NCBI RefSeq assembly: GCF_008831045.1
Contig: NZ_WAJS01000003.1
Coordinates: 1-64,000, forward strand
Origin: Adlercreutzia muris
GTDB lineage: Bacteria; Actinomycetota; Coriobacteriia; Coriobacteriales; Eggerthellaceae
Direction of reading: 5' to 3'
Length of the DNA: 64,000 nt
The notes beneath the pieces were generated by a model that was not told the DNA's origin, searched no databases, and saw nothing but the letters and a program-made list of their open reading frames with translations. Position 1 is the stretch's first letter; each line of letters begins with the position of its first letter. Position numbers and translations under genes: made by a program. Positions 14,321-59,109 of the stretch are shown piece by piece.

Positions 14321-14360
14321 GAACGCCATTTTGACCGTAGAGAGGAAAGAGAGGACCCCC

Positions 14361-17837: not shown

Positions 17838-17839
17838 CC

Positions 17840-32654: not shown

Positions 32655-32663
32655 AGGTGCCCC

Positions 32664-33374: not shown

Positions 33375-33398
33375 GGCTTCTCCTCTTCACTCTCGCTC

Positions 33399-33454
33399 AA
33401 ATGGCTTCAAAATCCAGGTTGTGCACAGGCGCAACCTGGATTTTCAAGCCATTT
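33399..33454. repeat. 23-bp near-perfect palindrome upstream of the NapG-like gene
   Basis: Arms 33399-33421 and 33432-33454 are complementary at 22 of 23 positions (AAATGGCTT, one mismatch, AAAATCCAGGTTG) around a 10-base loop. It sits 25 bp upstream of the NapG-like start and can form a cruciform or a stable 5' hairpin. A second, 12-bp pair (AGCGAGGCGGGC) at 33472-33531 lies next to it. Confidence 0.8.
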
Positions 33455-33545
33455 CGGAAACGCTGCCGAGAAGCGAGGCGGGCCGATGCGTTGCCTGCGG
33501 GGCTTGTCCGGTAAGAAAAGCCCGCCTCGCTCAAGTTCCTCAAAG

Positions 33546-33573
33546 GGCGGCCCGTCGACCAGAACGGGCCGCC
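33546..33573 (-). terminator. Terminator after the system 2 anchor gene
   Basis: A 10-bp stem, GGCGGCCCGT and its complement, with an 8-base loop, begins 10 bases past the anchor stop codon and is followed on the minus strand by CTTTGAGG. It separates the catalytic/Fe-S/anchor genes from the NapGH-like genes. Confidence 0.65.
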
Positions 33574-33582
33574 TCCGTTACG

Positions 33583-34497: not shown

Positions 34498-34503
34498 TGG
34501 TAG

Positions 34504-35163: not shown

Positions 35164-35181
35164 AGCTTCTACCTCCTTCCT

Positions 35182-38100
35182 TTATTCCTTGATAAGGCTG
35201 ATCGTCTGCAGGCCCTTGGCATCGGACTTCGCATAGGTGAGCTCCACCTTCGAGTCGTCCAGGCGCGGGTCGTTGGCCAGCCATTCCTTCAGACGCGGGT
35301 CGTTGGCGTTCGTGATGGCCTCGTTGCCCCACGGGTCGCACGGCACCGGGTTGCCGAACGGCGAGTTCTCCTCGGTGGCCTTGTAGACGACCATCGGGTT
35401 GCCGCGCAGCTGGGAGGCGCCGCAGATCCAGCACTGGGCGTACTTGTCCATGGTGCAGTTGATGCCGACGAGCTCGAAGCCATGGGCGGCGTGGTCCATC
35501 TCGGGGTACCACCAGGCATGGTTGGCGTTGGTGGTGCCTTCCTTGATGCCGTAGTACAGGTCGGCCACCTCGCGGATGGCGCCCCACGGCGTGCGGACCC
35601 AAATCCAGTCGCCCTGCTCGATGCCGAGGCGCGCCGCGTCGTTCGGGTTCATCTCGAAGCGCGGGGACGGCCACAGCTCGCGGCACCAGGGCAGCTGACG
35701 GTGCTCGGAGTGGAAGTACACGGGCTGGCGAGCGCCGGAAGTGCAGATGAAGGTGGCTTCCGGGTTCTCCTTCACGGCCTTCTTGTAGGCCTCGAGGTTG
35801 TCGGTGTCACCGTTGTCGGTGGCCTGGCCGGTGCCCACGCCCTCGATGAGGTGGTAGGGCTTGTTCAGGTAGCTCTCGCTGTTGTAGGAAGCGCTGTCCA
35901 CCAGGCTGGCGTCGTACCACTCGGGGTTGGAGACGCGGGAGTTCTTGGCCTCGAACCAGTGCGGGAACTTGTCGATGTCCGGAATGTCGCCAGCGTAGGC
36001 GGCACGCTCGGGCGAGCACACCTCGGCGAAGTACGGGGTCTTGTCGCCCACCTTCACCGTGGTGCCCGGCGTCTCCAGCACGTAGGACTCGGTCACCGTG
36101 TCGCCGATGTAGGACTCACAGATGGTCGACCAGATCTCAACCTTGCCGGTGGGAGTGCCGAAGGCGCACTTCTCGTCCACGGCAGCGTACAGGTTGTAGC
36201 CGGCCTGCTGGCGACGGTAGCCCATCTCCCAGCGACGGTAGGTGCCCCAGCGCTCGGGATGCCACTTGCGGCAGTCGAACCAGCCCTCTTCCTGGAACTT
36301 CGCAGCGTACTGCGGGAAGTCGGGGCCATCGGGGTACTCCTCGGTCTTCCACCAGTCGGTGGCGTCCTTGAGCACGCGGTACTCCTGCTCCTCGTAGCCC
36401 ACGCTTCCGCCAGCCTGGATGAAGTCGTGGTAGTCGAGGTTCAGCCACTCGTCGTACTCGGGATCGCGGTCGTTGAACGGCACGCCCATGGACTTGTGCA
36501 GGCACACCACGAAGGTCGGGTCGAAGACCACATCTCCGATGGGCTCCACGCAGCGCTGGCCCGCGCCGAAGATGCCGCCGGCACCCTGGGACACACGGCC
36601 GGTGTTGGTCTCCAGCCAGTGGGTGCAGGGGAAGACGTAGTCGGCGGTGCCGTTGTTCGGGCAGGACCACAGGTTGATGTCCACCCAGAAGTCGAGCTGC
36701 GTGAGGGCGTCCCATGCTTCCAGCAGGTTGGACTGGTTCATGAAGTCGCCGGACATGCAGATGCCGCCGTAGAGCTTGTAGGGGGAATCGATCTCGCGGA
36801 TGGCGTCCCAGATGGAGGAAGCGTCGGTCCAGGAGTTCCAGAAGCGCAGCAGCGGGAAGCGCTCGGCGGAGATCTGGTCCGCGTTGTTCTCGAACGGCGT
36901 CTTCAGACCCGGGAAGGCGCGGGAGCCCTTGTAATCGCCGCCCTTGCGCATGGCGATGATACGGGCCTCCTCATCGGTGGGAATGTGGTTGCCGTAGCGC
37001 TCCATGAGCGGGGAATTCTCCGCCTGCAGGTACTTCACGAAGTTCTGGATCAGCGGGATCTGGTCCTCGATGGTCAGATCGCGCGGGGTGTTGCCGAGCT
37101 CCATGGTGCCGATGCCCTCGCGGATACCCCAGTCGACGGGCTCATGATCGGTCACGATCATGTTGGCGCGGCCGCAGCAGCCGTCCACCTGGGCCTTGGA
37201 GGAGCCGCGGTTGCCGGCGGGCTCGTCGGAGTTGCCGGTCAGGCAAGCGATGAGCTGCAGGGCACGGGTGTTCTGCACGGCGTGGCCGGTCTGGTCGGGA
37301 GCCAGCTGGTAGTGGATGCCGCCGTTGCCGTGAAGCGGGTTCAGGCGCGTGGTGTAGGTGCGCACCGCCTCCTCGATCTTGTCGGCGGGCACCTCGGTGA
37401 TCTGGGACACGTTCTCGAGGGTGTACTCCTCCAGGTTGTGCTCCCACTCCTGCCACACGGACTTGGCCTCGATCATGGTGCCGTTCTTCAACTTCACCTG
37501 CACGCCGTCGGGCCACAGCTCCGGGTCCTTCGGCAGGCCCTTCGGGTTGGACTTGGCGCCCTTCTCGTTGCCCTCGCCAGTCCAGTAGGCGTCGTAGGCC
37601 GGGTCGGCCGGGTCGGCGAACTTGGAGGGGTCGGGCAGCCAGGCATCGGCGATGATGGGCTTGTAGGGGTGCTCGATCCAGGTACCGGTGGTCGGGATCT
37701 TGTGCTTCTCGCCCTCCCACTGGCATTCCTCGGCGTCCCAGTAGGTCGGCTTCTCGTTGGCGGCGTCCCAGCAGATGAAGCGGCGATAGGAGTACTGCTC
37801 CGGCGCCGGCTCCCAGAACTGGGAGACCCACTCGCGATCAAGGTCAGCCTCGGTGAGAAGACGGCTCGTCATGTGAATGCCGCCGTTCATCTCCAGGAAG
37901 TAGCCCTTGTAGGTCTTGCCGTCGGCCTCGGGGTTGTACAGGAACGGACCGTTGGACCAGCGCTTCACGAAGTTCTTGTCGTAGGCGTCGTTGTCCACGA
38001 TCCACTTCAGCCAGCCCAGCGACAGCGCCAGGTCGGTGCCGACGCGGATGGGCAGCCAGATGTCGGCCTCCTTGCCCAGCGGGCTCATGCGCGGGTCCAC

Positions 38101-38826
38101 CAGGATGTGCTTGTAGGCGCGCTGCGAGCAGTCGACGACGGTACGGTTGGTGGAGTCGTAGTTGGAGTACTCCGACGCGGTGCCCCACTGCACGTACACG
38201 ATCGGGCCCTGCTCCACTTCCATCCAGGGCGAGCCCTTCTCATCGGTGAGCACGCCGCCGAAGTGGCGGGGGCCCTTGCAGATCTCGTAGGCGGAATGGA
38301 AGTTATGGGTGCCGAAGACCGACTTCAGCGTGCCATAGGGCGGCTGCGCCCACACACGCGAGGTGCCGCCCATGGAGAAGATCGACTTCCCGCCGTACTT
38401 CTCGATGAGCTCGTTGTACTTGGCGCCGACCTCGTCCATGGCCTCGGCGAAGTTCACACGGACCCAACCGGGATCGTCCTCGCCCTTGGGGTTGGTGCGC
38501 TTCATGGTGTAGCGCAGCCGATCGGGATGGTACAGAGCCAGCATGGACGACTGCGACTTGGCACAGCAATGACCGCGGCTGTGCGCGTTGGACTCGTCAC
38601 CCTCAACCTTGATGACCTTGTTGTCCTGCACGGTGACCCACACACCGCATTCCACTTTACCGCACGCGCGGCAGCAGGAACGGATGCGCTTGACCTCACC
38701 AGCTGATTCGTCGACGCCCTCGGCCAAAGCCGCAGACGGAGCGGCGGCAAAGCTCAAGGTGCTCGCAGCGCCCGTGACGGCGGCTGCCTTCAGGAAGCTG
38801 CGACGAGTCAGTGAAAGTTTAGCCAT
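35182..38826 (-). CDS. Molybdopterin oxidoreductase catalytic subunit, 1214 aa (system 2)
   Basis: Tat signal TRRSFLKAAAVTGAAS (residues 8-23), then an N-terminal Fe-S motif CCRACGKVEC (51-60) with CC at 87-88, and the bis-MGD-binding domains; the C-terminal domain includes QPVYFHSEHRQLPWCRELWP. It is homologous to the 48779 product (shared ECGVWVTV, YHPDR, MKRTNPKGED, DPRMS/LS). The CRxCGKxECGVWVTV pattern is one I associate with the large Eggerthellaceae clade that includes catechol dehydroxylases, but substrate cannot be assigned. The size, about 250 residues above system 1, reflects insertions around residues 330-480. GAGGAGGG precedes ATG. Confidence 0.9.
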   Translation of the reverse strand: MAKLSLTRRSFLKAAAVTGAASTLSFAAAPSAALAEGVDESAGEVKRIRSCCRACGKVECGVWVTVQDNKVIKVEGDESNAHSRGHCCAKSQSSMLALYHPDRLRYTMKRTNPKGEDDPGWVRVNFAEAMDEVGAKYNELIEKYGGKSIFSMGGTSRVWAQPPYGTLKSVFGTHNFHSAYEICKGPRHFGGVLTDEKGSPWMEVEQGPIVYVQWGTASEYSNYDSTNRTVVDCSQRAYKHILVDPRMSPLGKEADIWLPIRVGTDLALSLGWLKWIVDNDAYDKNFVKRWSNGPFLYNPEADGKTYKGYFLEMNGGIHMTSRLLTEADLDREWVSQFWEPAPEQYSYRRFICWDAANEKPTYWDAEECQWEGEKHKIPTTGTWIEHPYKPIIADAWLPDPSKFADPADPAYDAYWTGEGNEKGAKSNPKGLPKDPELWPDGVQVKLKNGTMIEAKSVWQEWEHNLEEYTLENVSQITEVPADKIEEAVRTYTTRLNPLHGNGGIHYQLAPDQTGHAVQNTRALQLIACLTGNSDEPAGNRGSSKAQVDGCCGRANMIVTDHEPVDWGIREGIGTMELGNTPRDLTIEDQIPLIQNFVKYLQAENSPLMERYGNHIPTDEEARIIAMRKGGDYKGSRAFPGLKTPFENNADQISAERFPLLRFWNSWTDASSIWDAIREIDSPYKLYGGICMSGDFMNQSNLLEAWDALTQLDFWVDINLWSCPNNGTADYVFPCTHWLETNTGRVSQGAGGIFGAGQRCVEPIGDVVFDPTFVVCLHKSMGVPFNDRDPEYDEWLNLDYHDFIQAGGSVGYEEQEYRVLKDATDWWKTEEYPDGPDFPQYAAKFQEEGWFDCRKWHPERWGTYRRWEMGYRRQQAGYNLYAAVDEKCAFGTPTGKVEIWSTICESYIGDTVTESYVLETPGTTVKVGDKTPYFAEVCSPERAAYAGDIPDIDKFPHWFEAKNSRVSNPEWYDASLVDSASYNSESYLNKPYHLIEGVGTGQATDNGDTDNLEAYKKAVKENPEATFICTSGARQPVYFHSEHRQLPWCRELWPSPRFEMNPNDAARLGIEQGDWIWVRTPWGAIREVADLYYGIKEGTTNANHAWWYPEMDHAAHGFELVGINCTMDKYAQCWICGASQLRGNPMVVYKATEENSPFGNPVPCDPWGNEAITNANDPRLKEWLANDPRLDDSKVELTYAKSDAKGLQTISLIKE

Positions 38827-39157
38827 GGGTCCCTCCTCTCTCTTAGAGTAGATAGCTTTCAACAAAACACCGGGAGCCGCCGGCGGAGCCTTGGCGGCGC
38901 GTCCCTTGGATGGATGGGAGGGATGTCCGCCGCAGCTGTCGGCAAGCTGCCGATGTTTTGTTGCCCAACGGTGGGAAATGATACGGAGCTGTTACGTTTC
39001 GCAATCATAAGAGCAGGCCGATTCAGGCCCGCGCAATCATCCGCAAGCTCATCTCTTCAGGATGATTTCCCTGTTCGCGCCCCTCCTATACTGGACAACG
39101 AAGAGGATAGGCGGCAGCCAAGATCTACGTCGGCTGCCAACAGGAAAGGAGACCCCG
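38827..39157. promoter_or_regulatory. Divergent control region of system 2 and the coiled-coil/helicase-like operon
   Basis: 331 bp without a gene. For the rightward operon there is a TATACT-like element at about 39090; for the leftward operon I see no confident -10. There are locally AT-rich stretches around 38955-39010. A short dyad GGCAGCTTGCCG near 38939 is the only palindrome I noticed. No LuxR gene adjoins it. Confidence 0.35.
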
Positions 39158-44781: not shown

Positions 44782-46686
44782 ATGGGCTTTCACGTACCGC
44801 GCGTCACCATCAGCATCGACTTCGGCAAAGAGGCCTCGTTCGGCGAGCTGAGCCTCATCTCGCTCGGCTACGGGCTGCACCAGGCCTGGATTTACAGCTC
44901 CATGTTCGATAAGGGCGGCATCTTCGGCACGGCCCCCTTGGAAGTAAGCCCTCTGAACGAGGAGCTGTCGCTGGCCTACTTCATGTCCATCCTCGTATAC
45001 GGCGTGTTGCTGCTTGTCGCGAGCGCGCTGGACACGAAGCTCATCCGCTTCTTCCACGCCACGGCGACCCTCGCCAGCGCGGCGGCGCTCGGCGCCGCGG
45101 GTACTCTGCTTCTGCTCTTGCCCGCGTCGGCCGGATGGGACACCGAGATGACCCAGATCGTCTCCGGCGTGCTCACCGGTGCGGGCTCCTCGGTACTGCT
45201 CATCGCCTGGGGCATCGCCTTCGCACGGCGCGACTCGGCTTCCATCGTCATCAACGGGGCTCTGTCCATCGCCATCGGCTTCGGCATCTACGGCGTGGTG
45301 CTGCACCAACTCCCCTTCCCCATCGGCGCTATCGCGAGCGCGCTCATTCCCGTGGCGGAAATGGCGCTTTTGCTCGTGCTGCGCTCTCACGTGAGCCTCG
45401 ATTTCGACAACCGCCGGCTCGTCTTCAGCCCCCTGCCCATTAACCAAGCGCGCTTCGTGTTCCGCTTCGGGCTGCCGGTGTTCTTCCTCGGCGTGGCCCT
45501 AGGCGTGCTGCGCCAAACCTCCATCGAGACGGTGCTGCCCGGTGACGGCTTCGAGGATCAGGCCATCCTCTTCGTCACCGCCTGCTGCGCCATGGTGCTC
45601 ATCATGGTGACGTTTCTGGCTCTCGGCGGCAACGAGCGCTGGCATACCTTCTTCCGCCCGCTCATTCCCTTCATCGCCGTGACGGCCGTGTTCATCCCCG
45701 TATCCGCCGGCTCCGATTCGGTGCTCACCACTTCGGTGGTGCTCATCGGGTACATGACCTTCGAGGCGCTCATGTGGATCTTCTTCGCCGAGCTCTCGCA
45801 GCGCTTCCGCCTCTCGCCCATCTTCGTGTTCGGCCTCGGACGCGGCGTGATGGCCCTGGCGACCCTCGGCGGGTCGCTTCTGCCCGTGGCGAGCGCCGCG
45901 CTGCCCGGCATTCCGGCCGTAGGCGAGACGGGCCTTGTGATTCTGGTGATCGTGGCCATGATGGTGGCCTATGCGCTTCTGCCCGAGGAGCGCGAGATGA
46001 TGACCATCGTATCTACCGCGCCCTGTGTGAAACTGGCCGCCCGCACGCCGGGCACGCCGCTCGTGGTGGCGAACTTTGCCGACCGCGGCGAAGGCGAGGC
46101 TGCAGAAGCAAGCCCGACGGAAAAGGCGGACGCCGCCACCTCGCGAGCACCGTGGGAAATGACCGCCGCAGAAGAGGACGGGAAGGGAGCCAATCTTGAT
46201 TCACCAGCGGCCGCCGGCGACGGCGGCGACGGCGGCACAGCGATGCCGACGGCGGCCGCTGCAGCCTCCGCGGAGGGTGCCACCGCCAATGCGGGAAACC
46301 CGGCAGCGGTGCCGCTCCCCGTAAGCCCCGAAGCCGACCTGCCCGACCCGGCTCCCACGGCCCTGGCGGATTCTGCGGACGGTACCGCCCCGATATCCGA
46401 AGCGCGGCGCACCATGCTCGGCGAGACGGTCGAGAGCGACGACGGAGACGCTCGCATGGGTCGCTTCCGTTTGCGCTGCGAGGCCGTGGCCAACACCTAC
46501 CTGCTGTCGCGCCGTGAAAGCGAGGTGCTCTATTACCTGGCTCGTGGCTACAAATCGGCTTCCATCCAGCAGCAGCTCTACATCTCCGAGGGCACGGCGA
46601 AGACCCACATCCGCCACATCTACCGCAAGCTGAACGTGCACAACCAGCAGGAGCTCATCCTTCTCATCGACGAGGTGGAGCTGTAG
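44782..46686 (+). CDS. Membrane-spanning LuxR-family regulator, long linker
   Basis: 634 residues. Ten to twelve hydrophobic helices occupy residues 1-400, followed by an unusually long acidic Ala/Gly/Pro-rich linker (about 420-555) and a LuxR helix-turn-helix at the C-terminus (LSRRESEVLYYLARGYKS, EGTAKTHIRHIYRKLNVHNQQ). AAGGGGGAT precedes ATG. It converges on the anchor gene of molybdoenzyme system 3. A substrate-responsive, membrane-tethered activator is the likely role. Confidence 0.87.
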   Translation: MGFHVPRVTISIDFGKEASFGELSLISLGYGLHQAWIYSSMFDKGGIFGTAPLEVSPLNEELSLAYFMSILVYGVLLLVASALDTKLIRFFHATATLASAAALGAAGTLLLLLPASAGWDTEMTQIVSGVLTGAGSSVLLIAWGIAFARRDSASIVINGALSIAIGFGIYGVVLHQLPFPIGAIASALIPVAEMALLLVLRSHVSLDFDNRRLVFSPLPINQARFVFRFGLPVFFLGVALGVLRQTSIETVLPGDGFEDQAILFVTACCAMVLIMVTFLALGGNERWHTFFRPLIPFIAVTAVFIPVSAGSDSVLTTSVVLIGYMTFEALMWIFFAELSQRFRLSPIFVFGLGRGVMALATLGGSLLPVASAALPGIPAVGETGLVILVIVAMMVAYALLPEEREMMTIVSTAPCVKLAARTPGTPLVVANFADRGEGEAAEASPTEKADAATSRAPWEMTAAEEDGKGANLDSPAAAGDGGDGGTAMPTAAAAASAEGATANAGNPAAVPLPVSPEADLPDPAPTALADSADGTAPISEARRTMLGETVESDDGDARMGRFRLRCEAVANTYLLSRRESEVLYYLARGYKSASIQQQLYISEGTAKTHIRHIYRKLNVHNQQELILLIDEVEL

Positions 46687-47239: not shown

Positions 47240-48112
47240 TTAGAAGAACGGGTAGATGCTCACACCGGTCATGTAGAACGTCGCACGCAGGGCCAGAGCG
47301 CTCACGAGCACGCAGGCCGCGCCCACGGCACCCCAGATTTTCCAGTCGCCCTTGGCCTTGCCCACAAAAGCACTGGCCGCACCGGCCACCGCCGCTACAA
47401 TGGAGCATACGGCCCAGCCCATGGACGCGCCGGAGAAGGGCGCCGTGGAGCCATCGGGAGTGATGTCCAGCGTCGGCTGGGTGGGGTCGTACCAGAACTC
47501 CACGGCGGTGTAGGATCCAGCCGTGGCCTGCATGGCAATGAGGTAGGCCACCACGAGCACCACGTTGGCACACTGGCCGATCACGTTGGCCTTGGCATCC
47601 AGGTCGGAAGCTTCATCGCGCACGGCACAGATGACGGCCATGGTCGCCGGGCCGAAGGCGCAGGCCGCGCCCAAAAGCGAGCCGATCTGCAGCAGGGAAT
47701 CCCAGGCCGGCAGCGAGGCCATCATGTAGGAGTGGCCCATGACGACCACGAGCACCACGGCCAGCACAAGACCGGCCACGGCGAGCCACGCCGGCACCCT
47801 GGCCTCATCACCGCTGCGGCGCAGGTACACGAAGTAGACCACCATGACCACCGCGAGCACCACGATGGCAATGAGCTCCTGGGTGATGCCGCTGGTCATG
47901 TGGCCGAAGCCGTTGAAGATGCGCTCCCAGTGCTCCAGATGGAAGAACACCGCAATACCGCCGACGGCCAGAAGCGCCACGGAGACGATGAGCGCCGGCA
48001 TCTGGGCTTTCGCGCCCCGGCCGCGCAGGGCCCACAGGCACTGGGCGCCGAACAGGCCCGCCGCCCACGCGAGCAGCGTCGTAAACAAGATAAGGGGCCA
48101 TTGCAGTTCCAT
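47240..48112 (-). CDS. DmsC/NrfD-like membrane anchor subunit (system 3)
   Basis: 290 residues with about eight membrane helices, N-terminus MELQWPLILFTTLLAW. Contains IAVFFHLEHWERIFNGFGHM, aligning with the anchor at 33583. Its ATG overlaps the stop codon of the Fe-S gene (TAATG), so translation is coupled. The upstream extension of this frame is a shadow of the Fe-S gene. Confidence 0.88.
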   Translation of the reverse strand: MELQWPLILFTTLLAWAAGLFGAQCLWALRGRGAKAQMPALIVSVALLAVGGIAVFFHLEHWERIFNGFGHMTSGITQELIAIVVLAVVMVVYFVYLRRSGDEARVPAWLAVAGLVLAVVLVVVMGHSYMMASLPAWDSLLQIGSLLGAACAFGPATMAVICAVRDEASDLDAKANVIGQCANVVLVVAYLIAMQATAGSYTAVEFWYDPTQPTLDITPDGSTAPFSGASMGWAVCSIVAAVAGAASAFVGKAKGDWKIWGAVGAACVLVSALALRATFYMTGVSIYPFF

Positions 48113-48774
48113 TATTCCCCACCCTTCCATTCTCTGTCGCGCAGGATGTAGGCGAAGTGCGGGCCGTTGCCCACGTCGGGCAGCCGGTGCACGTCGGCCT
48201 CGCCGTACTCCTTGGCCATTTCGCCCAGCTTCACGCGATTGCCGGTGTACAGGTTGTCGTAGGAGCGATCGGTGTCGTAGCCCACGGCCGGCGCCTCGAA
48301 GGAGTCGATGCCGGCGTCCAGATCGCCGAAGAAGCGGGCGCGGCCGCCGCACTGGATGACGCACTGGGGCAGGCCGCCGGCGGCGGTGATCTGCTCACAG
48401 AGCGTGCACTTCTCGACCACGCGCTCCTCCTCGTTCAGGTAGCGCACGCCGTAGGGGCAGGCCATGGCGCAGAACTGGCAGCCGATGCACTTGGACTTGT
48501 CGATCTGCACGGTGCCGTCCTCGCGCACCTGGGAGGCGCCGGTGGGGCACACTTTCACGCACTCGGGGTTCTCGCAGTGCTGGCAGCCCACGGGCAGGTA
48601 GTACATCTCCACGTCGCGGGCGCTCGCGGCGCCGGCCTTCTTGCTCGGGCCGATTCTCAGCACCTTGTTCCAGTAGCTGCCGATGGGCACGTTGTTCACG
48701 GCCTTGCACGCGACCATGCACGCGAGGCAGCCCACGCAGCGGTTCAGGTCGGTGACGATAGCGTTCGTTGCCAT
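48112..48774 (-). CDS. DmsB-like four-cluster Fe-S subunit (system 3)
   Basis: 220 residues: CVGCLACMVACK, CQHCENPECVKVCP, CIGCQFCAMACPYG, and CTLCEQ with CVIQCGGRARFFGD. Nearly the same as the 34504 product in its Cys regions. It bridges anchor and catalytic subunit. Four bases separate it from the catalytic gene. Confidence 0.92.
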   Translation of the reverse strand: MATNAIVTDLNRCVGCLACMVACKAVNNVPIGSYWNKVLRIGPSKKAGAASARDVEMYYLPVGCQHCENPECVKVCPTGASQVREDGTVQIDKSKCIGCQFCAMACPYGVRYLNEEERVVEKCTLCEQITAAGGLPQCVIQCGGRARFFGDLDAGIDSFEAPAVGYDTDRSYDNLYTGNRVKLGEMAKEYGEADVHRLPDVGNGPHFAYILRDREWKGGE

Positions 48775-48778
48775 GGCC

Positions 48779-51700
48779 CTAGGCCTCCTCTCGGATATCG
48801 TAGTTGGGCAGCCATGCCTTCAGGCGCGGGTCGGAGGCGTCGCAGATGATCTGGGTGCCGTCCTCGGGCGCGCAGGGGATGACGTTGCCGTCGGGGCAGT
48901 TCTCGGGCGTCGCCTTGTAGATCTTCACGGGCACGCCGCGCATGTGGGACGAGCCGATGAACTTGTCCTGGCCGTAGGGATTCCAGATGCACTCGATGTT
49001 GGACAGCGTGAAGCCGTGGGTCGGCGCCGGCAGCTCGGGGAACCACCAGGCGTGCTCGGCGTTGGCCCAGCCCGGCGCGATGCCGTGGTAGAGGTCCACG
49101 CACTGGCGCACCTTGCCCCACTCGGTCTCGATCCAGGCCCAGTCGCCCTGCTTGAGCCCCAGCTTCTCGGCGTCCTCGGGGTTCATCTCCAGGCGCGGGG
49201 CCGGCCACAGCTCGCGACACCAGGGCAGTTGCCGGTGCTCGGAGTGGAAGTACACGGGGATACGGCGGCCGGTGGTGAGGATGATCGGGTACTCCTCCAG
49301 GTCGATGGTGCCGCTGCCGGCCGCGGACACGGGCGGCTCGTAGTTCGGCATCATCTCCTTGATGACGTCGAACTTGCCAGGCTCGGCCTCGTTGGCCATG
49401 TCGAGGCACAGCGTCTCGAACTGCATGGACCAGAAGCTCACCAAGCCCGTGGGGGTGGGACAGCCGAAGTTGTTCACCGGCTGGCCCGTGGCGGGGTCGG
49501 TCGACCAGGGGGCGGCAGTGCAGGCATCCTTGCCCATGCGCATCCAGCCGGTCTCGAAGCGACGGTAGGTGCCCCAGCGCTCCGGCTCTACTACCTTGGC
49601 GTTGATCCAGCCATTGTCCTGGAAGTCCTGACGGAAGTCCTCCCAGTGCTCCCACTTGCAGCCCGGGTAGCGATCCGAGAAGCCCGACACCTCGTTATGG
49701 GCCTGGAACCAGTCCTCCAAGCGGTCGTCGTGCAGATAGGCACCCGGGGCGTCGCCGGCGATGTTGGTCCAGGTGCCGTTGGGGTTGCCCTGCTTCTCCA
49801 TGGCCTCGAAGATGAGGCGGTTGATGTCGTAGTCGAACTTCGTGTCGGCCGGCGGCTCGATGGCGCGCTGGGTAAGCCCGATACCGCCCGAGGCGCCCTG
49901 GGACACGCGGATGCAGTTCAACTCGGTCCAGTGCTGGCAGGGCAGGATGATGTCGGCCATCTCGGTGCCGGGGTGGTGGAACATGTTGATGTCCACCCAG
50001 AAGTCCAGCTGCGAGAGCGCCTCCCAGGCCAGGTTGGCGTTGGACATGTTCATGAACGAGCCGGACTCGTTGATGCCGCCGCGCAGGCGGTACTCGCCGT
50101 TGCCCAGACAGGCCTCCCAGATGAGGGTGGCATCAGCCCACTCGCCGTAGTAGGGCAGCATGGGGAACTTGCTCGCGCCGATCATCTTGCCGTGCACATC
50201 GCGCTTGTCCGGAATGTTCATCGGATCGACGTCCACATCGGCAAGGTACATCGGCGGGCACATGGGCTCTCCGGTGAGCGCTCCCATGCCCTTCAGGGTG
50301 TACTTCACCTCTTCGGGCATGTTGGTGCCCGGAGCGGCCGTGGACTGCTCGTCCACAGGGGAGCGCGTGAGGCCGCGGTTGCCGGCAGGGCCGTCGAAGT
50401 TGCCCGAGGTGTAGATGAGGTTGCAGATGGCACGCACCGTCTGGGTGCAGTTGCCGATCTGGTCGGGGGCCAGCTGCAGGTGGATACCGCCGTTGCCGTA
50501 GGTCTGGCCCTCGGGACGGGTCAGCCACAGCACGCAGGTCTCCTCGATCATCTGCGGGTCGAGGCCCGTGATCTCGGCGGCCCACTCGGGGGTGCAATCG
50601 GCCACCGAGGCGGCCAGGTAGCTCCACACGGGACGGGCGGCGTGCTTGCTGCCGTCAGCCAGGGTCACCTCGTGGGTGCCCTCCAGATCGAAGTCGATGC
50701 CGGCCTCCACGAGCTCGTTATAGGAGATGGGCGGCAGGTAGCCCTCCTGGGAGGTGCCGGCGTACACCACTTCCATCTGATCGCGGGTGGGGGCCACGTG
50801 GTTGCAGCCCTGCCACTGGGTGGTGTCGGCGTCCCAGTACACCAGGCCGCCGGCGCCGTCGTTGGCGTTCTTGTTCCAGGCCATGAACTTGTGGGGGCTG
50901 CCGCCGGCCACCAGGTCGCTCTCCTTCAGAAGGCGCGTCTTCAGCTTCGTGCCGATGAGATCCTGCAGCGGGGGCACGGCGATGGGGGCCGTCAGATCCA
51001 GGTAGCGTCCGCCCGTGGGCTCCATGTCCTCCACCACCAGCAGCGAGGCGTCGGTCCAGCGCTTCACGAACTCCCAGTCCACCAGGTCCTTTTCGATCAT
51101 GACATGCTGCCAGGCCAGGGCGAGCGCCCCGTCGGTGCCCGGCTCCAGGTTCAGCCAGTAGTCCGCCTCCTTGCCCGAGCCGGACAGGCGCGGGTCGATG
51201 CAGATATGGGCCTCGGCATCGGTCATGCGGTCCACGAGGTTGCGGCAGCTGTCGTCGTAGTTGGAGTTCTCCGGCGCGGTGCCCCACTGCACGTAGACGC
51301 GCGGCCCGTCGCGCAGGGCCATCCATGGGGAGCCGTCCACGGAGCTGATCCAGCCCATGAGGCGGCGGGGGCCCTTGCAGATCTCCGAGGCCACGTGGGC
51401 GTTGGGAGTCTGGAACAGCCACTTGTAGAACGCATAGGGCCCATAGACCCACTGGCGGGACGTGCCGCACATGTTGAAGATGCACTCGCCGCCGTACTGG
51501 TCGATGAGCTCCTGGAACTTGGTGCCGATGGTCTCCATGGCCTCGTCCCAGGTGATGCGCACCCAGCCAGGGTCCTCGCCCTTGGGGTTGGTGCGCTTCA
51601 TGGGATGGTAGATGCGGTCGGGGTGGTAGGCCGCCTGCAGCGACGACTGCGACTTGCCGCAGCAGTTGCCCGACGACTGGAACGACGACTGGTCGCCCTC

Positions 51701-51925
51701 CACCTTGACGGCGCGCCCGTTCTCCACCGTGACCCACACGCCGCACTCCATCTTGCCGCAGCCGCGGCAGCAGGTGCGCACGCGCTTGACCTCACTGCCC
51801 TTGCCCGGCGCCTCGGCATCCTCGGCGAGCGCCGCACCGGGCGCGGCACATCCGATGACCGCCGTGGCGGCCGTGGCCGCGGACAGCTTGGCGAAGGTAC
51901 GGCGGCTCAGGTTGAGCTTACCCAT
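48779..51925 (-). CDS. Molybdopterin oxidoreductase catalytic subunit, 1048 aa (system 3)
   Basis: Tat signal SRRTFAKLSAATAATAV (7-23); a Cys at 26 in VIGC might act as a lipobox, but ALAED nearby is a plausible peptidase site. The Fe-S motif is CCRGCGKMEC (52-61) with CC at 88-89. The C-terminal region contains PVYFHSEHRQLPWCRELWPAP, shared with system 2. A homologue of the 35182 product but without its large insertions. Likely an exported respiratory reductase or dehydroxylase; substrate unknown. AAAGGAGGAGAG precedes ATG. The divergent LuxR at 52126 is its probable regulator. Confidence 0.9.
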   Translation of the reverse strand: MGKLNLSRRTFAKLSAATAATAVIGCAAPGAALAEDAEAPGKGSEVKRVRTCCRGCGKMECGVWVTVENGRAVKVEGDQSSFQSSGNCCGKSQSSLQAAYHPDRIYHPMKRTNPKGEDPGWVRITWDEAMETIGTKFQELIDQYGGECIFNMCGTSRQWVYGPYAFYKWLFQTPNAHVASEICKGPRRLMGWISSVDGSPWMALRDGPRVYVQWGTAPENSNYDDSCRNLVDRMTDAEAHICIDPRLSGSGKEADYWLNLEPGTDGALALAWQHVMIEKDLVDWEFVKRWTDASLLVVEDMEPTGGRYLDLTAPIAVPPLQDLIGTKLKTRLLKESDLVAGGSPHKFMAWNKNANDGAGGLVYWDADTTQWQGCNHVAPTRDQMEVVYAGTSQEGYLPPISYNELVEAGIDFDLEGTHEVTLADGSKHAARPVWSYLAASVADCTPEWAAEITGLDPQMIEETCVLWLTRPEGQTYGNGGIHLQLAPDQIGNCTQTVRAICNLIYTSGNFDGPAGNRGLTRSPVDEQSTAAPGTNMPEEVKYTLKGMGALTGEPMCPPMYLADVDVDPMNIPDKRDVHGKMIGASKFPMLPYYGEWADATLIWEACLGNGEYRLRGGINESGSFMNMSNANLAWEALSQLDFWVDINMFHHPGTEMADIILPCQHWTELNCIRVSQGASGGIGLTQRAIEPPADTKFDYDINRLIFEAMEKQGNPNGTWTNIAGDAPGAYLHDDRLEDWFQAHNEVSGFSDRYPGCKWEHWEDFRQDFQDNGWINAKVVEPERWGTYRRFETGWMRMGKDACTAAPWSTDPATGQPVNNFGCPTPTGLVSFWSMQFETLCLDMANEAEPGKFDVIKEMMPNYEPPVSAAGSGTIDLEEYPIILTTGRRIPVYFHSEHRQLPWCRELWPAPRLEMNPEDAEKLGLKQGDWAWIETEWGKVRQCVDLYHGIAPGWANAEHAWWFPELPAPTHGFTLSNIECIWNPYGQDKFIGSSHMRGVPVKIYKATPENCPDGNVIPCAPEDGTQIICDASDPRLKAWLPNYDIREEA

Positions 51926-52102
51926 CTCTCCTCCTTTTGTCTCTCTTCTCTTCTGGAAGCCGCTGGCGCGGTCTCCCACGTTGACATGGTGGCAAAATCG
52001 GGGCGCCGTCGCATCATATGTTTGCCATGATTTTTGAGTTTTACCAGTTCAATTCCTTATTTGTCCAGGAAAAAGATGGGCGCTTCCCCAAGCTTTTCCC
52101 AC

Positions 52103-52125: not shown

Positions 52126-53736
52126 GTGGATTTCCAGGGGAAGAACACGGTGCCGCCCGCTCGCTCCATGGTTGCCAGTCAAGTCGAGGGGGCTCGCGTG
52201 AGATTCGACTACATCGCAGAGAACCTGCGCGCCCGACGCGCGGAAATCGGCTCGCACCCGCTGTCCCCGGATCGCGTGCTCGGCTTCACGCTCATCCGGG
52301 GCTGGGTGTACCTCATGTTCGTCGGCGCGGCCGCCAGCTCCATGACGTGGACCGGCGAGGCCCTCCCGCCCGTCTTCTATACCGTCTCCACGGCGAGCCT
52401 GTGCGCCGTGCTCCTGGCGAGCGCCCTGGCCGGCAGCCGCTTCGTCCAGCTGATGCTGCACCCTGCCGCCCGGCTCGCCGGGCCCGTGCTCACCAGCGGG
52501 GGCACCCTGCTTTTGGCCTCCTCGGTCGGCGAGAGCGGCGCGGCCCTCATGTGCGGGCTTCTGGGAGCCCTCACCACGGGCATCGGCTCGGGCATCATCG
52601 ATCTGGGCTACGGCGAGCTGTACCGCAACGAGCCACCGGCCCGCACCACCTTCGAGGTGCCCCTGGCCTTCTTCCTAGCCGCCGTGGTGTTCTCCCTCGT
52701 CATCGCACTGCCGCCGACCGCGGGCTGCGTCGTCTGCTCGCTTTTGCCGGCCATTTCCGGATGGATCCTCTTCGGCCGCGAGCATGCCTGGTCCCGCAAG
52801 CACCGCGCCAGCGTGTTGCCCATCGATTTCGACCTGAAGTCCTTCGCCTGGCGCATCGGCGTGTGCGCCTGTTTGGTGGGCGTGGCCGACGGCATGGTGC
52901 GAGCTGCCTTCCTCTCGTCCAACAACCTGAGCATGCACATGTTCCTGCAATGGCCCCTGGCAGGAGCGGGGCTGCTCACCATGGCCATCGTCTACGGTGC
53001 CGCCATCTTGAGCTCCGAGCAGAGCGCCCGCACCATCTACAAGGCCGCCATCTTCGTCATGGCCTTCTTCTTCATGCTGCTGCCCGCGTTCACCGGCGCC
53101 CAGGATATGGAAAGCGTGCTGGCCCTGGCCGGCTACGGCACTTTCAACGTGCTCATCTGGATGCTGCTGGCGGAAATCTCCTACACCTACCGGCTCTCCT
53201 CCACCGAGGTCTTCGGCATCGGCTGGGCCATGGTGACCTTAGGGGTGCTGCTCGGTTCCATCGCCGGAACCATCGTGGATCAGTTCGCCCCGTTCACGCC
53301 CCAGTTCTTGAGCCTCATCGCCCTGGTCGCCACCATGGCCGTGCTCCTGTCGTTTCTGTTTGTGTTTCGCGAGAGCGACCTCATCGATCTGACCGAGGAG
53401 CCCGACGGCGACAACGCGGGCGCCATCGAGAAGGCCGCGGAAAGCCCGAGCTCCGAGGGGGTCGTCGCAGTGGCCGGCGAGTCGGGCGGCGACGAGGGTC
53501 GCCGGCCCCGCTTCCACGACCGCTGCCTGGAGGTGGCCGCCGCCTTCGAGTTATCGCCGAAGGAGACCGAGGTCATGACCTTGTTCGCCAAGGGCCGATC
53601 GGCCGCCCGCATCCAAGAGGAGCTGTTCATATCGAAGGGCACCGTGAGCACACATCTGCGCCACATCTACCAGAAGATGGACGTTCATTCCAAGCAGGAG
53701 CTCCTCGACGTCATCGAAGACCGCGACCGGAAGTGA
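52126..53736 (+). CDS. Membrane-spanning LuxR-family regulator (divergent from system 3)
   Basis: Up to 536 residues. About 12 hydrophobic helices span residues 60-420, followed by a linker and the LuxR helix-turn-helix (LSPKETEVMTLFAKGRSA, KGTVSTHLRHIYQKMDVHSKQ). Start is uncertain: GTG at 52126 lies only about 10 bases after the predicted transcript start; GTG at 52198, preceded by GAGGGGG, would remove 24 residues. Its head-to-head position with the system 3 catalytic gene makes it the probable regulator of that operon. Confidence 0.84.
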   Translation: MDFQGKNTVPPARSMVASQVEGARVRFDYIAENLRARRAEIGSHPLSPDRVLGFTLIRGWVYLMFVGAAASSMTWTGEALPPVFYTVSTASLCAVLLASALAGSRFVQLMLHPAARLAGPVLTSGGTLLLASSVGESGAALMCGLLGALTTGIGSGIIDLGYGELYRNEPPARTTFEVPLAFFLAAVVFSLVIALPPTAGCVVCSLLPAISGWILFGREHAWSRKHRASVLPIDFDLKSFAWRIGVCACLVGVADGMVRAAFLSSNNLSMHMFLQWPLAGAGLLTMAIVYGAAILSSEQSARTIYKAAIFVMAFFFMLLPAFTGAQDMESVLALAGYGTFNVLIWMLLAEISYTYRLSSTEVFGIGWAMVTLGVLLGSIAGTIVDQFAPFTPQFLSLIALVATMAVLLSFLFVFRESDLIDLTEEPDGDNAGAIEKAAESPSSEGVVAVAGESGGDEGRRPRFHDRCLEVAAAFELSPKETEVMTLFAKGRSAARIQEELFISKGTVSTHLRHIYQKMDVHSKQELLDVIEDRDRK

Positions 53737-53869: not shown

Positions 53870-55393
53870 ATGGGCTTGAACAGGGAGAGTGCGCACCTGA
53901 ACGGACGCGGGGCGCTTATTGCCGTAGGCGCCGGCCTGAACCTGAGCACGTACGGACTGGGCGTATGGGGCGAGAACGTGCTGCTGTCGAGTGGGACCTT
54001 CGTGGGGCCCGCTCTGGCAACGCTCGCGGAAACCTACCTCCTCTTCGCCGCGCTCGGGCTGTTTGCCGCCCTCATCCTGCGCATCGCCATCGCCGCTTGC
54101 ACCGGACAGAGCAACCGCTTCTACTTGGTCTGCGGCCTGGGCCCCATGATCGTGGCGGCCGTGCTGTTCGGAAGCGGCCTGTGGAACGCCTCGGGACTGC
54201 TCATAGCCCTGGCCGCCTTCTGCACCGGCTGGTCCTTTGCCTGCCAGAGCCTGTTCTGGATGAGCGCCCTGTCTTTCGAGCCAGGCCAGATGCGAACGGT
54301 CTTTCCGCTGGAACTCCTGGTCGCGGCCGTGGTGAATGTCGTGTTCGTCGCAGGATTTCTGAACCTGCAGGCCATCTTTCTCGGCGCTGGCATCGCGCTG
54401 TCCGCTGCGGCAAGCGTACTGCTGTTGCACGGGGACGCCCAGCGGGAGCACCCTGCCGTGGCGGCACCGAGCAGGGCGCTCCAGAGCCGATACCTGCCCG
54501 GGTTTCGCCAACTGGCGGAAGTGCTGTTCTGCGTCGTGGCCCTGCAGACCATCGCGCCCACCCTCAATTACATGGGACTTTCCGGCGCCCTGCCGCCCGA
54601 GCAGCAGCAGCTGGCCATCATCGCCGCTAAAATGGCAGCCGCCGTAACTCTCGTGGCCATCCTGCACTGGTCGCGAGCGCCGCTGTACTCGGTGCAGGTG
54701 TTCAAGGTGGTCACGCCCGTGCTCATCCTGCTGCTGTTCGCCGTGCCCTTTGCCAGCGCCGGTTACCTGTTCGCGCTGCTCGTAGGCGGCTCCTGCCTGC
54801 ATTTCATCGTGACCAACTCGCTGTTCTGCATCGATGCCGTGGCCATCGCCCGACGGCGCGGGCTCGTCTTCGAGCTCTTCTACGGCACCGGTTACTTCGC
54901 GCTCATGGCCTTCTGCTCGGTACTCGAGAAGGTGATGCCCACCCTGCTGGCCGCCTCGTCGTCAATGGAACTGCTGCTCGTGTTCGGCGTGTTCTTCTGC
55001 GTCTATGCCCTCAGCATGGCCTTCGTCGCGGTGCGGCGCCGCCGGCGCGACAGCGGCGGAGACGGCGCCGAGAACACGACCGCTCCCGCTTCCCCGCCCT
55101 CCTCCGAGCCGACCGTGACGACTGACGCCGAACGGGTGGCCGCCGTGCAGGCGCACTGCGGCTTGTCTGATCGCGAGGCCGAGATCGTGCTCCTCATGAT
55201 GCACGGGCGCAACGTGCCGGCCATTGCCGAGGCGCTGGTCATCTCCCAGAACACCGTGCGCACCCACGTGAAGCGCATTTACCGCGCCTGCGGCGTCCAC
55301 TCCCGCCAAGAGCTCATCGCCCGCTGCGAAACCGAGGAATCTCAGGGTCATAGCGACGGTCCCCCAGCTAAATCACCTAGTAATCCATCATAA
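53870..55393 (+). CDS. Membrane-spanning LuxR-family regulator (upstream of flavoprotein reductase)
   Basis: 507 residues; about 12 hydrophobic helices to residue 385, then a short Ser/Pro linker and the helix-turn-helix (LSDREAEIVLLMMHGRNV, QNTVRTHVKRIYRACGVHSRQ). AAGGAGAGGGGG precedes ATG. The exported flavoprotein gene begins 87 bases after its stop, in the same direction, and is the likely target. Confidence 0.87.
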   Translation: MGLNRESAHLNGRGALIAVGAGLNLSTYGLGVWGENVLLSSGTFVGPALATLAETYLLFAALGLFAALILRIAIAACTGQSNRFYLVCGLGPMIVAAVLFGSGLWNASGLLIALAAFCTGWSFACQSLFWMSALSFEPGQMRTVFPLELLVAAVVNVVFVAGFLNLQAIFLGAGIALSAAASVLLLHGDAQREHPAVAAPSRALQSRYLPGFRQLAEVLFCVVALQTIAPTLNYMGLSGALPPEQQQLAIIAAKMAAAVTLVAILHWSRAPLYSVQVFKVVTPVLILLLFAVPFASAGYLFALLVGGSCLHFIVTNSLFCIDAVAIARRRGLVFELFYGTGYFALMAFCSVLEKVMPTLLAASSSMELLLVFGVFFCVYALSMAFVAVRRRRRDSGGDGAENTTAPASPPSSEPTVTTDAERVAAVQAHCGLSDREAEIVLLMMHGRNVPAIAEALVISQNTVRTHVKRIYRACGVHSRQELIARCETEESQGHSDGPPAKSPSNPS

Positions 55394-55480
55394 TCACCCA
55401 TTTTGAGACACGGCGGCGCCCCCTTCGTGCCCTATGGTTTCCCTGTCGCGGAAAGCGACGAGAGACCAAGGAGGGAACCT

Positions 55481-57754
55481 ATGTCGAAGATCACCCGAGG
55501 CGGGCTGTCCCGCCGCCAGTTCCTGACCGGATCGGCGATCACCGCCGGCGCCGTAGCATCGCTCGGTTTGGCTGGCTGCGCCCCGAAGGCCCCAGCCGAG
55601 GCACCGGCAGCCGGAAGCGACCTGGCCGCCACCGGCGAGGACGCCGCCAACGTGCGCGCCCATGCGGCCCAGCTCAACCCCCAGGGCGAGCCGAAGCCCG
55701 TGCAGAACACCACCTGCCCCTCGCTATTCACCGAATGGAAGATGGGAGCGCTCACCCTGCCCAACCGTGTGGTGAAGTCGGCCGCTGGCTACATCGGCGT
55801 GACGAGCCAGGGTATCACTGGCGATTTGCATATGCAGCACTATGGTAAGCTGGCCGCCGGTGGCGCATCAGTGGTGTACTGCGATGACTTCGCAGAACTC
55901 TACGATCATTTCCGCGCCATTCCCGACGTGGGCAAGTTCACCGACTGGACCGATGCCGACCTGACCGCCTTCGCCCAGAACATCAAGGACAACGGTGCCG
56001 CCGCCGGTTACCAGCTGGCCACCATGGGCCTCGTGTTCAGCGGTTTCGAGCCCGACCCCACGGCCATCTTCCAGTCCTCGGACTGCATGGATATGACGGC
56101 CGAGGAGATCCAGAACCTCATCGCCGACACCATCAAGGCCGCCGCCACCCTGAAGCGCTGCGGCTTCGATTGCGTGGAGATCAACGCCGCCGGCGAGAAT
56201 ATCGGCCAGACCTTCATGTCCCGCAACCGCAACAAGCGCGAGGACGACTACGGTCCGCAGACCTTCGAGAGCCGCACCCGCTTCGTCTGCGAGATCGTGC
56301 GCGGCATCAAGGCCGAATGCGGTGCCGACTTCCCTGTCCAGGTGCTCATCAACGGCGTTGAGGAGAACGACAAGGCCATCGGCGACTCCGCCCTCTTCAC
56401 CACCGTGGAGGAGAACAAGGAGATGTGCAAGCTCATCGAGGCCGCTGGCGCCGACTCGCTGCATATCCGCATCGGGCCCTGCGGCCAGCACGTCGCCGAG
56501 TTTGCCGGCGACCTGTACTTCTGCGGCACCGGCATCGAGGGCACCACAGGCTACGGCACCCAGTTCGACTTTACTCGCCACTGGCAGGGCATGCTGAAGG
56601 CCGATCAGTCGGGCCTCGGCGTCATGGTGCCCGTGGCCGCCGAGATCAAGAAGGCCGTGAGCATTCCCGTGGGCGCGGTCACCTACATGGACCCGGCTCG
56701 CGATCCGGAGTATTTCGAGGGGTTCATCGCGGGCGGCGATCTGGACTTCATCCTCATGAACCGCCCGCTTTCCGTGGACTACGACTACCTGCACAAGCTG
56801 GAAGAGGGCCGCATCGACGAGATCCGCCCCTGCACCCGCTGCATGCACTGCCATTGGGATGCGGCCGACGACGGAAACCTCACCTTCAGCTGCCGCACCA
56901 ACGCCGCGCACCCCTTCCGCTTCGTCACCGGCCAGCTAACCGGCGGCTACGACCCCGAGCCGGCCGCGACGGCCAAGAACGTCGTCGTAGTGGGCGCAGG
57001 ACCCGCCGGCTTGGAGGCAGCGCGTGTGGCCGCCGAGCGCGGACACGCTGTGACCCTCTACGAGAAGAAGGGCTCTGTGGGAGGCCTTCTGGAATTCGCC
57101 AACAACGTGAAGGGGCCCCACGAGAACCTGAGCGTGCTGCGCAACTACTTCGAGCGTCAGATGGAGCTACTCGGCGTGAACGTGGTGCTGAACACCGAGG
57201 CCACGGCCGACACCATCGCCGAGGCGGCCCCCGATGCCGTGATTCTGGCCACAGGCGGCGTGCGCGACAGCCTGGGCCTCGACGAGACGGCCGGCACGAA
57301 CGTGGTGGGCATCGATGACTTCATGATGGCCGATATTGCCGAGGAGGTTGTCGTGGTCGGATCGAACGCCCAGGCCATCGACGCGGCCATGTATCTGCTG
57401 GCCCAGGGCAAGCACGTGTCGGTGGTCACGCCGAGCGCGGCGGGCACCATCGGCGCCGGCCACTCCTTCTGGGTGAAGACCTTCACCCAGCCCAACATGA
57501 AGGCCCTCGGCGTGCGCTTCTGGCCCGAGGCCGAGGTGGTGGCCGTGAACGATGGCACCGTCACCGTGAAGACGGCTACGGGCATCCAGCAGGAGATTCC
57601 CTGCGGCACCGTCGTGGAGGCCCTGGACAGCCTGCCCAACGGCTCCCTCGCCGAAGGCCTGACCTGCGAGGTGGTCACCGTGGGCGATGCCGCCCGGCCC
57701 TTCAACATCGGCGAGGCCATCTGCTCCGCCAACGCCGCCGCCCGCGCCCTCTAG
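55481..57754 (+). CDS. Tat-exported lipoprotein flavoprotein, OYE/2,4-dienoyl-CoA reductase type
   Basis: 757 residues. The N-terminus has both a twin-arginine motif SRRQFLTGSA (10-19) and a lipobox LAGC (Cys 33), so it is probably a folded lipoprotein outside the membrane. An FMN-binding TIM barrel follows (LPNRVVKSAAGY, FMSRNRNKREDDYG), a Cys cluster C-x2-C-x2-C-x11-C (about 451-469), then an FAD-type nucleotide fold VVVGAGPAGLEAARVA (about 501-516). Family relatives reduce activated C=C bonds with NADH. Outside the cell NADH is lacking, so another electron donor is needed. GGAGGGAA precedes ATG. Substrate unknown. Confidence 0.85.
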   Translation: MSKITRGGLSRRQFLTGSAITAGAVASLGLAGCAPKAPAEAPAAGSDLAATGEDAANVRAHAAQLNPQGEPKPVQNTTCPSLFTEWKMGALTLPNRVVKSAAGYIGVTSQGITGDLHMQHYGKLAAGGASVVYCDDFAELYDHFRAIPDVGKFTDWTDADLTAFAQNIKDNGAAAGYQLATMGLVFSGFEPDPTAIFQSSDCMDMTAEEIQNLIADTIKAAATLKRCGFDCVEINAAGENIGQTFMSRNRNKREDDYGPQTFESRTRFVCEIVRGIKAECGADFPVQVLINGVEENDKAIGDSALFTTVEENKEMCKLIEAAGADSLHIRIGPCGQHVAEFAGDLYFCGTGIEGTTGYGTQFDFTRHWQGMLKADQSGLGVMVPVAAEIKKAVSIPVGAVTYMDPARDPEYFEGFIAGGDLDFILMNRPLSVDYDYLHKLEEGRIDEIRPCTRCMHCHWDAADDGNLTFSCRTNAAHPFRFVTGQLTGGYDPEPAATAKNVVVVGAGPAGLEAARVAAERGHAVTLYEKKGSVGGLLEFANNVKGPHENLSVLRNYFERQMELLGVNVVLNTEATADTIAEAAPDAVILATGGVRDSLGLDETAGTNVVGIDDFMMADIAEEVVVVGSNAQAIDAAMYLLAQGKHVSVVTPSAAGTIGAGHSFWVKTFTQPNMKALGVRFWPEAEVVAVNDGTVTVKTATGIQQEIPCGTVVEALDSLPNGSLAEGLTCEVVTVGDAARPFNIGEAICSANAAARAL

Positions 57755-58215: not shown

Positions 58216-59109
58216 CTAAGCGAGGGCCGCATCGTCGGCGGGGAAGGTGAGGGTGATGGCCAGCTCGTCGCCTTCCAGCGCCGCCGCGACTTCCATGCCC
58301 TGGGCAGCGGCGAGGCTCGCCACCACGGCCAGGCCGAGGCCCGCGCCGCTGCGAGCCCGGGCGGCATCGGCCCGGTAGAAGCGCTCGAAGAGGCGGTCGA
58401 TGTCGATAGCCGCCGGGTCTTCCACCACATTGGCGAAGGTGATGGCGCGGCCCTTTTGGGTGATGGCGGGCGCTGCCGCTCCGTAGCGCAGGGCGTTGCT
58501 GATAAGGTTCTCGAAGATGCGAGCAAGAGCCTCCTCGTCGGCCTCCACTGCAAGCGACTCGTCGGCGATGCGCACCTCCGGCTCCCAGCCGCGCTCCTCG
58601 AAGGCGGGAAACTGCCCCGTGAGCACGGCGGCCAGCACGGGCATCACCGCCGTGGGCCGCAGATCCAGCGCGGCGGTTGGGTCGGTGGCCCGAGCGTAGG
58701 CGAACAGGGCATCCAGCAGCCCTTCCATGTCGTCGAGCCGGGTCGAGGCCGCACCCAGGTAGTGGGCCCGACGCTCGCCGTCGGCCTCGTCGGCCGCCAG
58801 GGCCACGTAGCCCTTGGCCCCCATGAGCGGCGTGCGAATGTCGTGGGACAAACTCGCCAAGTCGCGCTGGAACTGGCGCTGCTCGGCGGCTGCCTCGCGG
58901 CGCTCCGCTTCGGCATCGTCCAGGGTCTCGTTCACGGCCCGAGCCAGCGCCGCGAAACCCGGTCCCGGCATCTCGGTGGACAGCCGCCCGTTGGAGCGCC
59001 GCTCGCGCCCCCGCAGGAAGGCGGCCATGCGGCGCAACTCGCGACCGTACAGCACCACCGTCGCAAAGGCGCACAGGGTCAACGCCCCCATACCCAGCGC
59101 AAGCGTCAT
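58216..59109 (-). CDS. Small membrane histidine kinase
   Basis: 297 residues. One N-terminal membrane helix (GMGALTLCAFATVVLYG), then a short linker and the kinase core: LASLSHDIRTPLMGAKGY (H-box), NLISNALRYGAAAP (N-box), FERFYRADAARARSGAGLGLAV (F/G boxes). With no sizeable extracytoplasmic domain it resembles kinases that sense through a partner transporter, and the ABC genes upstream fit this. Its likely partner regulator is encoded divergently at 61494. A gap of about 200 bp separates it from the permease gene. Confidence 0.88.
   Translation of the reverse strand: MTLALGMGALTLCAFATVVLYGRELRRMAAFLRGRERRSNGRLSTEMPGPGFAALARAVNETLDDAEAERREAAAEQRQFQRDLASLSHDIRTPLMGAKGYVALAADEADGERRAHYLGAASTRLDDMEGLLDALFAYARATDPTAALDLRPTAVMPVLAAVLTGQFPAFEERGWEPEVRIADESLAVEADEEALARIFENLISNALRYGAAAPAITQKGRAITFANVVEDPAAIDIDRLFERFYRADAARARSGAGLGLAVVASLAAAQGMEVAAALEGDELAITLTFPADDAALA

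Follow-up and report, generated by a model that had tools for sequence, protein, structure and literature searches.

The window analysed here, 64,000 nucleotides of the Adlercreutzia muris contig NZ_WAJS01000003.1, from a gut bacterium of the family Eggerthellaceae, contains a gene for a predicted Tat-exported lipoprotein of the old-yellow-enzyme (OYE) type. The locus raises the question of where such a flavoenzyme would obtain its electrons outside the cytoplasm, and on what it would act.

Gene, leader and cofactor domains

The reading frame is intact, starts with ATG and encodes 757 residues. The open reading frame listing runs the gene further 5', to a TTG at 55403; the ATG at 55481 was preferred because it has a ribosome-binding site and is followed by a Tat leader (Table 1). 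The frame is coding and conserved. The protein is 96% identical to its same-genus orthologue, third positions account for 122 of the 156 differences, and NG86 estimates of dN 0.020 and dS 0.263 give a dN/dS of about 0.08.

The leader reads SRRQFLTG, followed by a hydrophobic stretch and the lipobox LAGC with Cys33. The assignment as a Tat lipoprotein was made from these three elements (twin arginine, hydrophobic region and lipobox cysteine), all found in the window protein, and from their conservation in related proteins. Pfam recognized Oxidored_FMN (E = 2.4e-21, residues 81–291) and Pyr_redox_2 (E = 7.8e-16, residues 500–729). A [4Fe-4S] motif, C-x2-C-x2-C-x13-C, sits between the OYE barrel and the flavin domain, and the FMN-binding residues Q178, R265 and R428 are invariant across the exported clade described below. 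The sequence-only reading had proposed an exported flavoenzyme of the OYE type, and the leader, the lipobox and the Pfam domains bear this out, export being predicted.

An AlphaFold2 model (pTM 0.82, mean pLDDT 77; leader and segment 339–376 poorly modelled) aligned over some 620 residues, with Z scores of 40–42, to 2-naphthoyl-CoA reductase (NCR), histamine dehydrogenase, trimethylamine dehydrogenase (TMADH) and 2,4-dienoyl-CoA reductase (DCR), NCR being the top match in VIA-align. As modelled, the window protein combines in one chain the FMN barrel, [4Fe-4S] and FAD units that make up the complete architecture of the DCR/NCR/TMADH superfamily. By Pfam it is the sole Oxidored_FMN (PF00724), or old-yellow-enzyme, protein of its genome.

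Table 1. Features of the locus, in window coordinates
Feature	Position	Strand	Evidence or remark
LuxR-type regulator, 10–12 transmembrane segments, C-terminal GerE helix-turn-helix	53870–55393	+	GerE E 2e-12; directly upstream, same strand
Putative activator operator, direct repeat AATCACCTA / AATCACCCA then TTTTGAGACAC	55371–55411	+	Orthologue alignment
-10-like element TATGGT, no good -35	55433–55438	+	Orthologue alignment
Ribosome-binding site AAGGAGGG	55468–55475	+	Sequence
Predicted Tat-exported lipoprotein, OYE-type FMN / [4Fe-4S] / FAD oxidoreductase, 757 aa	55481–57754	+	Sequence, Pfam, model
Predicted Tat signal peptide (R11 R12) with lipobox Cys33	55481–55579	+	Sequence; clade conservation
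OYE-type TIM barrel (residues 81–445), FMN site	55721–56815	+	PF00724, model; Q178, R265, R428 kept
Segment 339–376, unlike cytosolic relatives, near-invariant D363 and H367	56495–56608	+	Alignment; low-confidence model
[4Fe-4S] ligands C451, C454, C457, C471	56831–56893	+	Invariant in 50/50 exported and 49/49 cytosolic proteins
FAD Rossmann motif GAGPAGLEAA...YEKK, intact	56975–57070	+	Sequence
Second Rossmann unit, degenerate NAD(P)H site, GSNAQAIDAA ... VSVVTPS	57344–57436	+	Sequence, clade alignment

A clade of exported relatives

Homologues were surveyed in 296 genomes of the class Coriobacteriia and in 396 genomes drawn across the phylum. Across both sets every homologue scoring above 425 bits has a Tat-type leader, nearly always with a lipobox, and no homologue at or below 205 bits has a leader. 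In a tree of 99 proteins, a sample of 50 exported proteins falls on one side of a branch of length 0.92 with support 100, and all 49 cytosolic relatives lie outside. The gene is thus no single oddity but belongs to a large clade of enzymes predicted to be exported, a point that the sequence-only reading had missed.

The twin arginine is kept across the clade and the lipobox in nearly all of the 50; one genome (G225) has three members with a Tat-type leader and no lipobox. Both the phylum-wide draw and, among the matches listed, a contig pattern scan placed exported members in Coriobacteriia alone, mostly in one family. Their nearest relatives outside the clade, L084–L088, have no leaders. Genomes carry up to 6–7 matches, nearly all of the exported type. 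Four exported members, one pair of them separated by about 230 bp, occur in a genome from another family of the class (G022; L199, L060). The E. lenta type strain carries one member (G068:C1:184752-186974), beside a divergent LuxR gene. Spread of the gene on plasmids was rejected, no plasmid match at 60% identity or more being found.

Loss of the NAD(P)H site

In the second Rossmann unit the last glycine of GxGxxG, at position 632, is Ala in 50/50 exported proteins and Gly in 46/49 cytosolic ones. The middle glycine is Asn in 39 of the 50, the window protein included. The acid at the end of beta-2, a determinant of NADH binding, occurs in 4/50 exported proteins against 45/49 cytosolic relatives. 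Twelve exported members have an Arg or Lys near this strand end, and 36, again including the window protein, have neither acid nor nearby base. Some deep-branching members keep the middle glycine and have His, Lys or an acid at the strand end. Thus the intact GxGxxG with an acidic or basic ribose determinant that marks NAD(P)H-dependent OYE reductases is absent, while the first Rossmann unit, for FAD, and the Fe-S motifs are intact across the clade.

Because the clade is one lineage, loss of the motif in all 50 counts as one shared event and not as 50 independent observations. L084–L088, which lack a leader, all keep the third glycine, and all but L088 keep the acid; motif loss and export thus fall on the same branch. 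The alignment supports the view that the window protein and its clade have no usable NAD(P)H site. A check for lost NADH-binding residues had been called for earlier, and it came out positive. The expectation that another electron source would be needed likewise finds support in the lost second motif and the mostly missing acid.

Active site of the barrel

The proton-donating Tyr of OYEs (column 240) is present in 37/49 cytosolic relatives and in none of the 50 exported proteins, which have Asn (41, among them Asn240 of the window protein), Asp (4), Gln (3) or His (2). This Tyr was called invariant in OYEs by the authors of the NCR study (PMC6502838). The barrel His is replaced by Asn (Asn235) in 43/50, and an FMN-side Arg at 289 by Leu in 50/50. 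The exported clade therefore has neither the proton-donating Tyr nor the His/Asn pair of classical ene-reductases.

Other residues are peculiar to the exported proteins. Arg330 is clade-specific and found in 50/50, and Asp363 and His367 occur in 49/50, the column of His367 being gapped in 49/49 cytosolic relatives. In the FAD domain His547 is present in 50/50, near the NCR FAD-ring residue W459 by alignment position (numbering of PMC6502838). The roles of Arg330, Asp363, His367 and His547 can only be guessed at from the alignment. With the catalytic Tyr replaced and other active-site residues specific to the family, the name ene-reductase, which the sequence-only reading had put forward as a possibility, is doubtful for this enzyme.

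The LuxR regulator and its putative operator

An upstream LuxR gene had been pointed out, and this was confirmed: the GerE match is clear, the protein is polytopic (a rough count gives about 11 hydrophobic segments), and a conserved promoter element precedes the window gene. The adjacency is kept in all seven orthologous loci with flanking sequence. A LuxR-type frame within 300 bp accompanies 34/51 exported loci and 0/25 loci of cytosolic relatives; the remaining 17 exported loci, some at contig ends, have none nearby. The nearby LuxR proteins have 10–12 hydrophobic segments, fewer in a few cases, and LuxR is the only widely recurrent neighbor of clade loci. An adjacent polytopic LuxR is also what characterizes the reductase modules of Coriobacteriia regulated by 10–12-TM LuxR proteins (PMC9734109). 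Membrane LuxR proteins activate catechol dehydroxylase genes in E. lenta, where 50 of them occur near flavin enzymes (PMC9734109).

The putative operator overlaps the 3' end of luxR with its repeats, which lie 21 bp apart, or two helical turns, at the window gene and 20–21 bp apart in orthologues. The orthologue consensus, with small variations, is AATCACC(C/T)A, 11–12 bases, AATCACC(C/T)A and TTTTGAGACAC. Among 216 loci the motif was found only at the promoter of this gene, and the full motif occurs once in the window, with 0 expected. A -10-like element, TAT[CG][GT]T in orthologues, follows downstream; a sigma-70 consensus scan of the promoter returned no site.

A second direct repeat of ATCACCC, at 58437–58464 on the reverse strand within a histidine kinase gene, is likely due to chance. 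The window holds two more polytopic LuxR genes, at 44782–46686 and 52126–53736, the latter divergent from a molybdenum reductase operon.

Possible electron donors

As no donor subunit was found among the neighbors of the clade genes, electrons would be drawn from the membrane chain, with shared carriers of the flavinylated (FMN_bind) kind, or some other quinol-linked donor, as the most likely route. A dedicated multihaem cytochrome of the NapC/NirT type is unlikely, since the genome has no PF03264 match and no recurrent cytochrome family was noticed beside clade loci. The genome contains one ApbE, nine FMN_bind matches and dozens of FAD_binding_2 reductases.

The window protein has no FMN_bind domain with a [S/T]GA[S/T] motif by Pfam. 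Two of the 50 exported proteins, L058 (5011-7563, reverse strand) and L049 (5193-7667, reverse strand), have an N-terminal, leader-proximal FMN_bind-like domain fused to the exported OYE. Both matches fall just under the curated Pfam cut-off of 22 bits, one at 20.6 and the other at 19.4 bits. The flavinylation motif is VSGAT in L058, which fits SGAT, and IAGAS in L049, with A where S or T is required first. These fusions hint that flavinylated carriers can feed the clade.

Elsewhere, the cluster L202 (G000:C8:45121-50571) groups ApbE and a MarR-like frame with a membrane protein, an FAD reductase bearing a Tat leader and a lipoprotein of the FMN_bind type, and is a candidate for a shared electron donor line. 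Three putative Tat-exported molybdenum reductase operons, with ferredoxin-like and membrane subunits, lie in the window at 14331–18724, 31674–38865 and 47240–51979 (Pfam was run on 48779–51979 only), making it rich in respiratory modules.

Proposed function and alternatives

The observations are best explained by a substrate-inducible reductase, lipid-anchored on the outer face of the cytoplasmic membrane, that works without NAD(P)H on electrons from the membrane chain; we give this reading a probability of about 0.7. The LuxR protein would sense a small molecule and activate the promoter in the 87-bp gap, and Tat would export the enzyme folded and loaded with cofactors. Its acceptor is probably some unsaturated compound from the diet or the host; CoA substrates are unlikely outside the cell. 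A family-specific residue would replace the OYE Tyr as proton donor, with His367, Asp363, His337 and Arg330 as candidates. Since the NAD(P)H site is lost, the exported enzymes probably allow their bacteria to respire with compounds from the diet or the host. Counting against this explanation, the catalytic Tyr and the Arg at 289 are lost, which may leave a range of chemistries.

An alternative is the reverse direction, in which an exported dehydrogenase oxidizes an external compound and passes the electrons into the membrane chain. TMADH and histamine dehydrogenase, which carry cysteinyl-FMN, oxidize amines; they share the fold of the window protein and also make no use of NAD(P)H. The VTP strand ending is common to histamine dehydrogenase and the window protein, and the ligand spacing C-x2-C-x2-C is that of the TMADH cluster. 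However, position 103, where the cysteine for 6-S-cysteinyl FMN would be expected, is Cys in none of the 50 exported proteins, and the Asn at the place of the catalytic Tyr also argues against oxidation. Use of an acceptor fits better with an anaerobe that has dozens of FAD_binding_2 flavoproteins, and three molybdenum operons in this window; the dehydrogenase reading is considered unlikely. Somewhat less probable still is a non-reductive role, as an extracytoplasmic hub passing electrons to other reductases or extracellular acceptors, or as a flavoprotein sensor. Degenerate OYE catalytic residues combined with an intact redox relay would suit it, but the distinct barrel residues R330, D363, H367 and K99 are strongly conserved, and up to 6–7 divergent copies per genome, most with private LuxR genes, resemble substrate specialization.

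The least probable reading considered is that the enzyme depends on NADPH after all, using its fold before or without export, with a leader that is slow or non-functional. GxGxxA alone can occur in NADPH-binding folds, and the deep-branching members with a middle glycine are in keeping with this. Nevertheless, in the window protein and in most other members that glycine is Asn and the acid has not given way to a basic residue for the 2'-phosphate, Tat leaders are kept throughout the deep clade, and NCR provides a case of the same fold working without NAD(P)H.

Significance

The respiratory reductases of E. lenta have been described as two families, the flavin-dependent COG1053 and the molybdenum-dependent COG0243 (PMC13060105). 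As the published E. lenta accounts name only these, the exported OYE clade looks like a third. No description of exported OYEs in this group was found in the literature searched (most subscription papers lay outside the search), nor any characterized member of the clade. We put at slightly better than even the chance that gut Eggerthellaceae have a third family of extracytoplasmic respiratory reductases, of the OYE type, in which NAD(P)H binding was lost once together with export, electrons derive from the membrane, a new acid–base site replaces the OYE Tyr, and each copy is induced by its substrate via a private membrane LuxR.

Exported reductases let gut Eggerthellaceae modify drugs, steroids and plant compounds, and surveys count two families of these enzymes; a third with private regulators would widen the pool of candidates for orphan reductions of rings and double bonds. 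Such a family would also give a natural example of an OYE fold that has moved from NAD(P)H to an external electron supply and, as aligned, lacks the "invariant" Tyr. The single member in the E. lenta type strain, where gene deletion exists, makes the proposal directly testable.

Comparison with known systems

NCR (PDB 6qkg) has the same three-domain fold (Z 41.8, 29% identity), with FMN, [4Fe-4S] and FAD. It has no NADPH site; dithionite or Ti(III) reduces it, NAD(P)H does not, and electrons are taken up by the surface-near FAD and pass through the [4Fe-4S] cluster to FMN (PMC6502838). TMADH (2tmd) and histamine dehydrogenase (3k30) have the fold without an NAD(P)H partner and exchange electrons with ETF via the Fe-S cluster (PMC6502838). 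These precedents establish an NAD(P)H-free relay for the fold, and by analogy the window protein would work in this way. It differs from NCR, which has a CoA ester as substrate, keeps the proton-donating Tyr197 and is believed to draw on ferredoxin, in its predicted export and in the Asn at the Tyr197 position. TMADH and histamine dehydrogenase differ in binding ADP in the FAD site and delivering electrons to ETF (PMC6502838). E. coli FadH (2,4-dienoyl-CoA reductase, 1ps9) resembles the window protein in fold (Z 40.7) and in the FMN / Fe-S / FAD relay, but differs in its GxGxxG with basic residues and its NADPH site, in its retained catalytic Tyr and in having no leader.

BaiCD, BilR, OsrB/ci2350 and DZNR are likewise OYE reductases with three domains, from gut bacteria (PMC11574389, PMC12238238). 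The gut OYE enzymes reviewed are described with NAD(P)+ sites (PMC11574389), and ci2350 differs in being coupled to NADH (PMC11574389, PMC12238238). The window protein scored far below the cut-offs of the NCBIfam models for BaiCD and bilirubin reductase. The best NCBIfam match, the mycofactocin OYE, was rejected at 256 bits against a cut-off of 793.

The COG1053 (FAD_binding_2) and COG0243 (Mo) respiratory reductases of Eggerthella resemble the exported clade in having many copies per genome, often beside TM-LuxR genes (PMC13060105, PMC9734109). The genome of the window also has several flavin and molybdenum respiratory reductases with Tat leaders, some with FMN_bind. What sets the COG1053 and COG0243 enzymes apart is the catalytic fold, which is unlike the OYE type.
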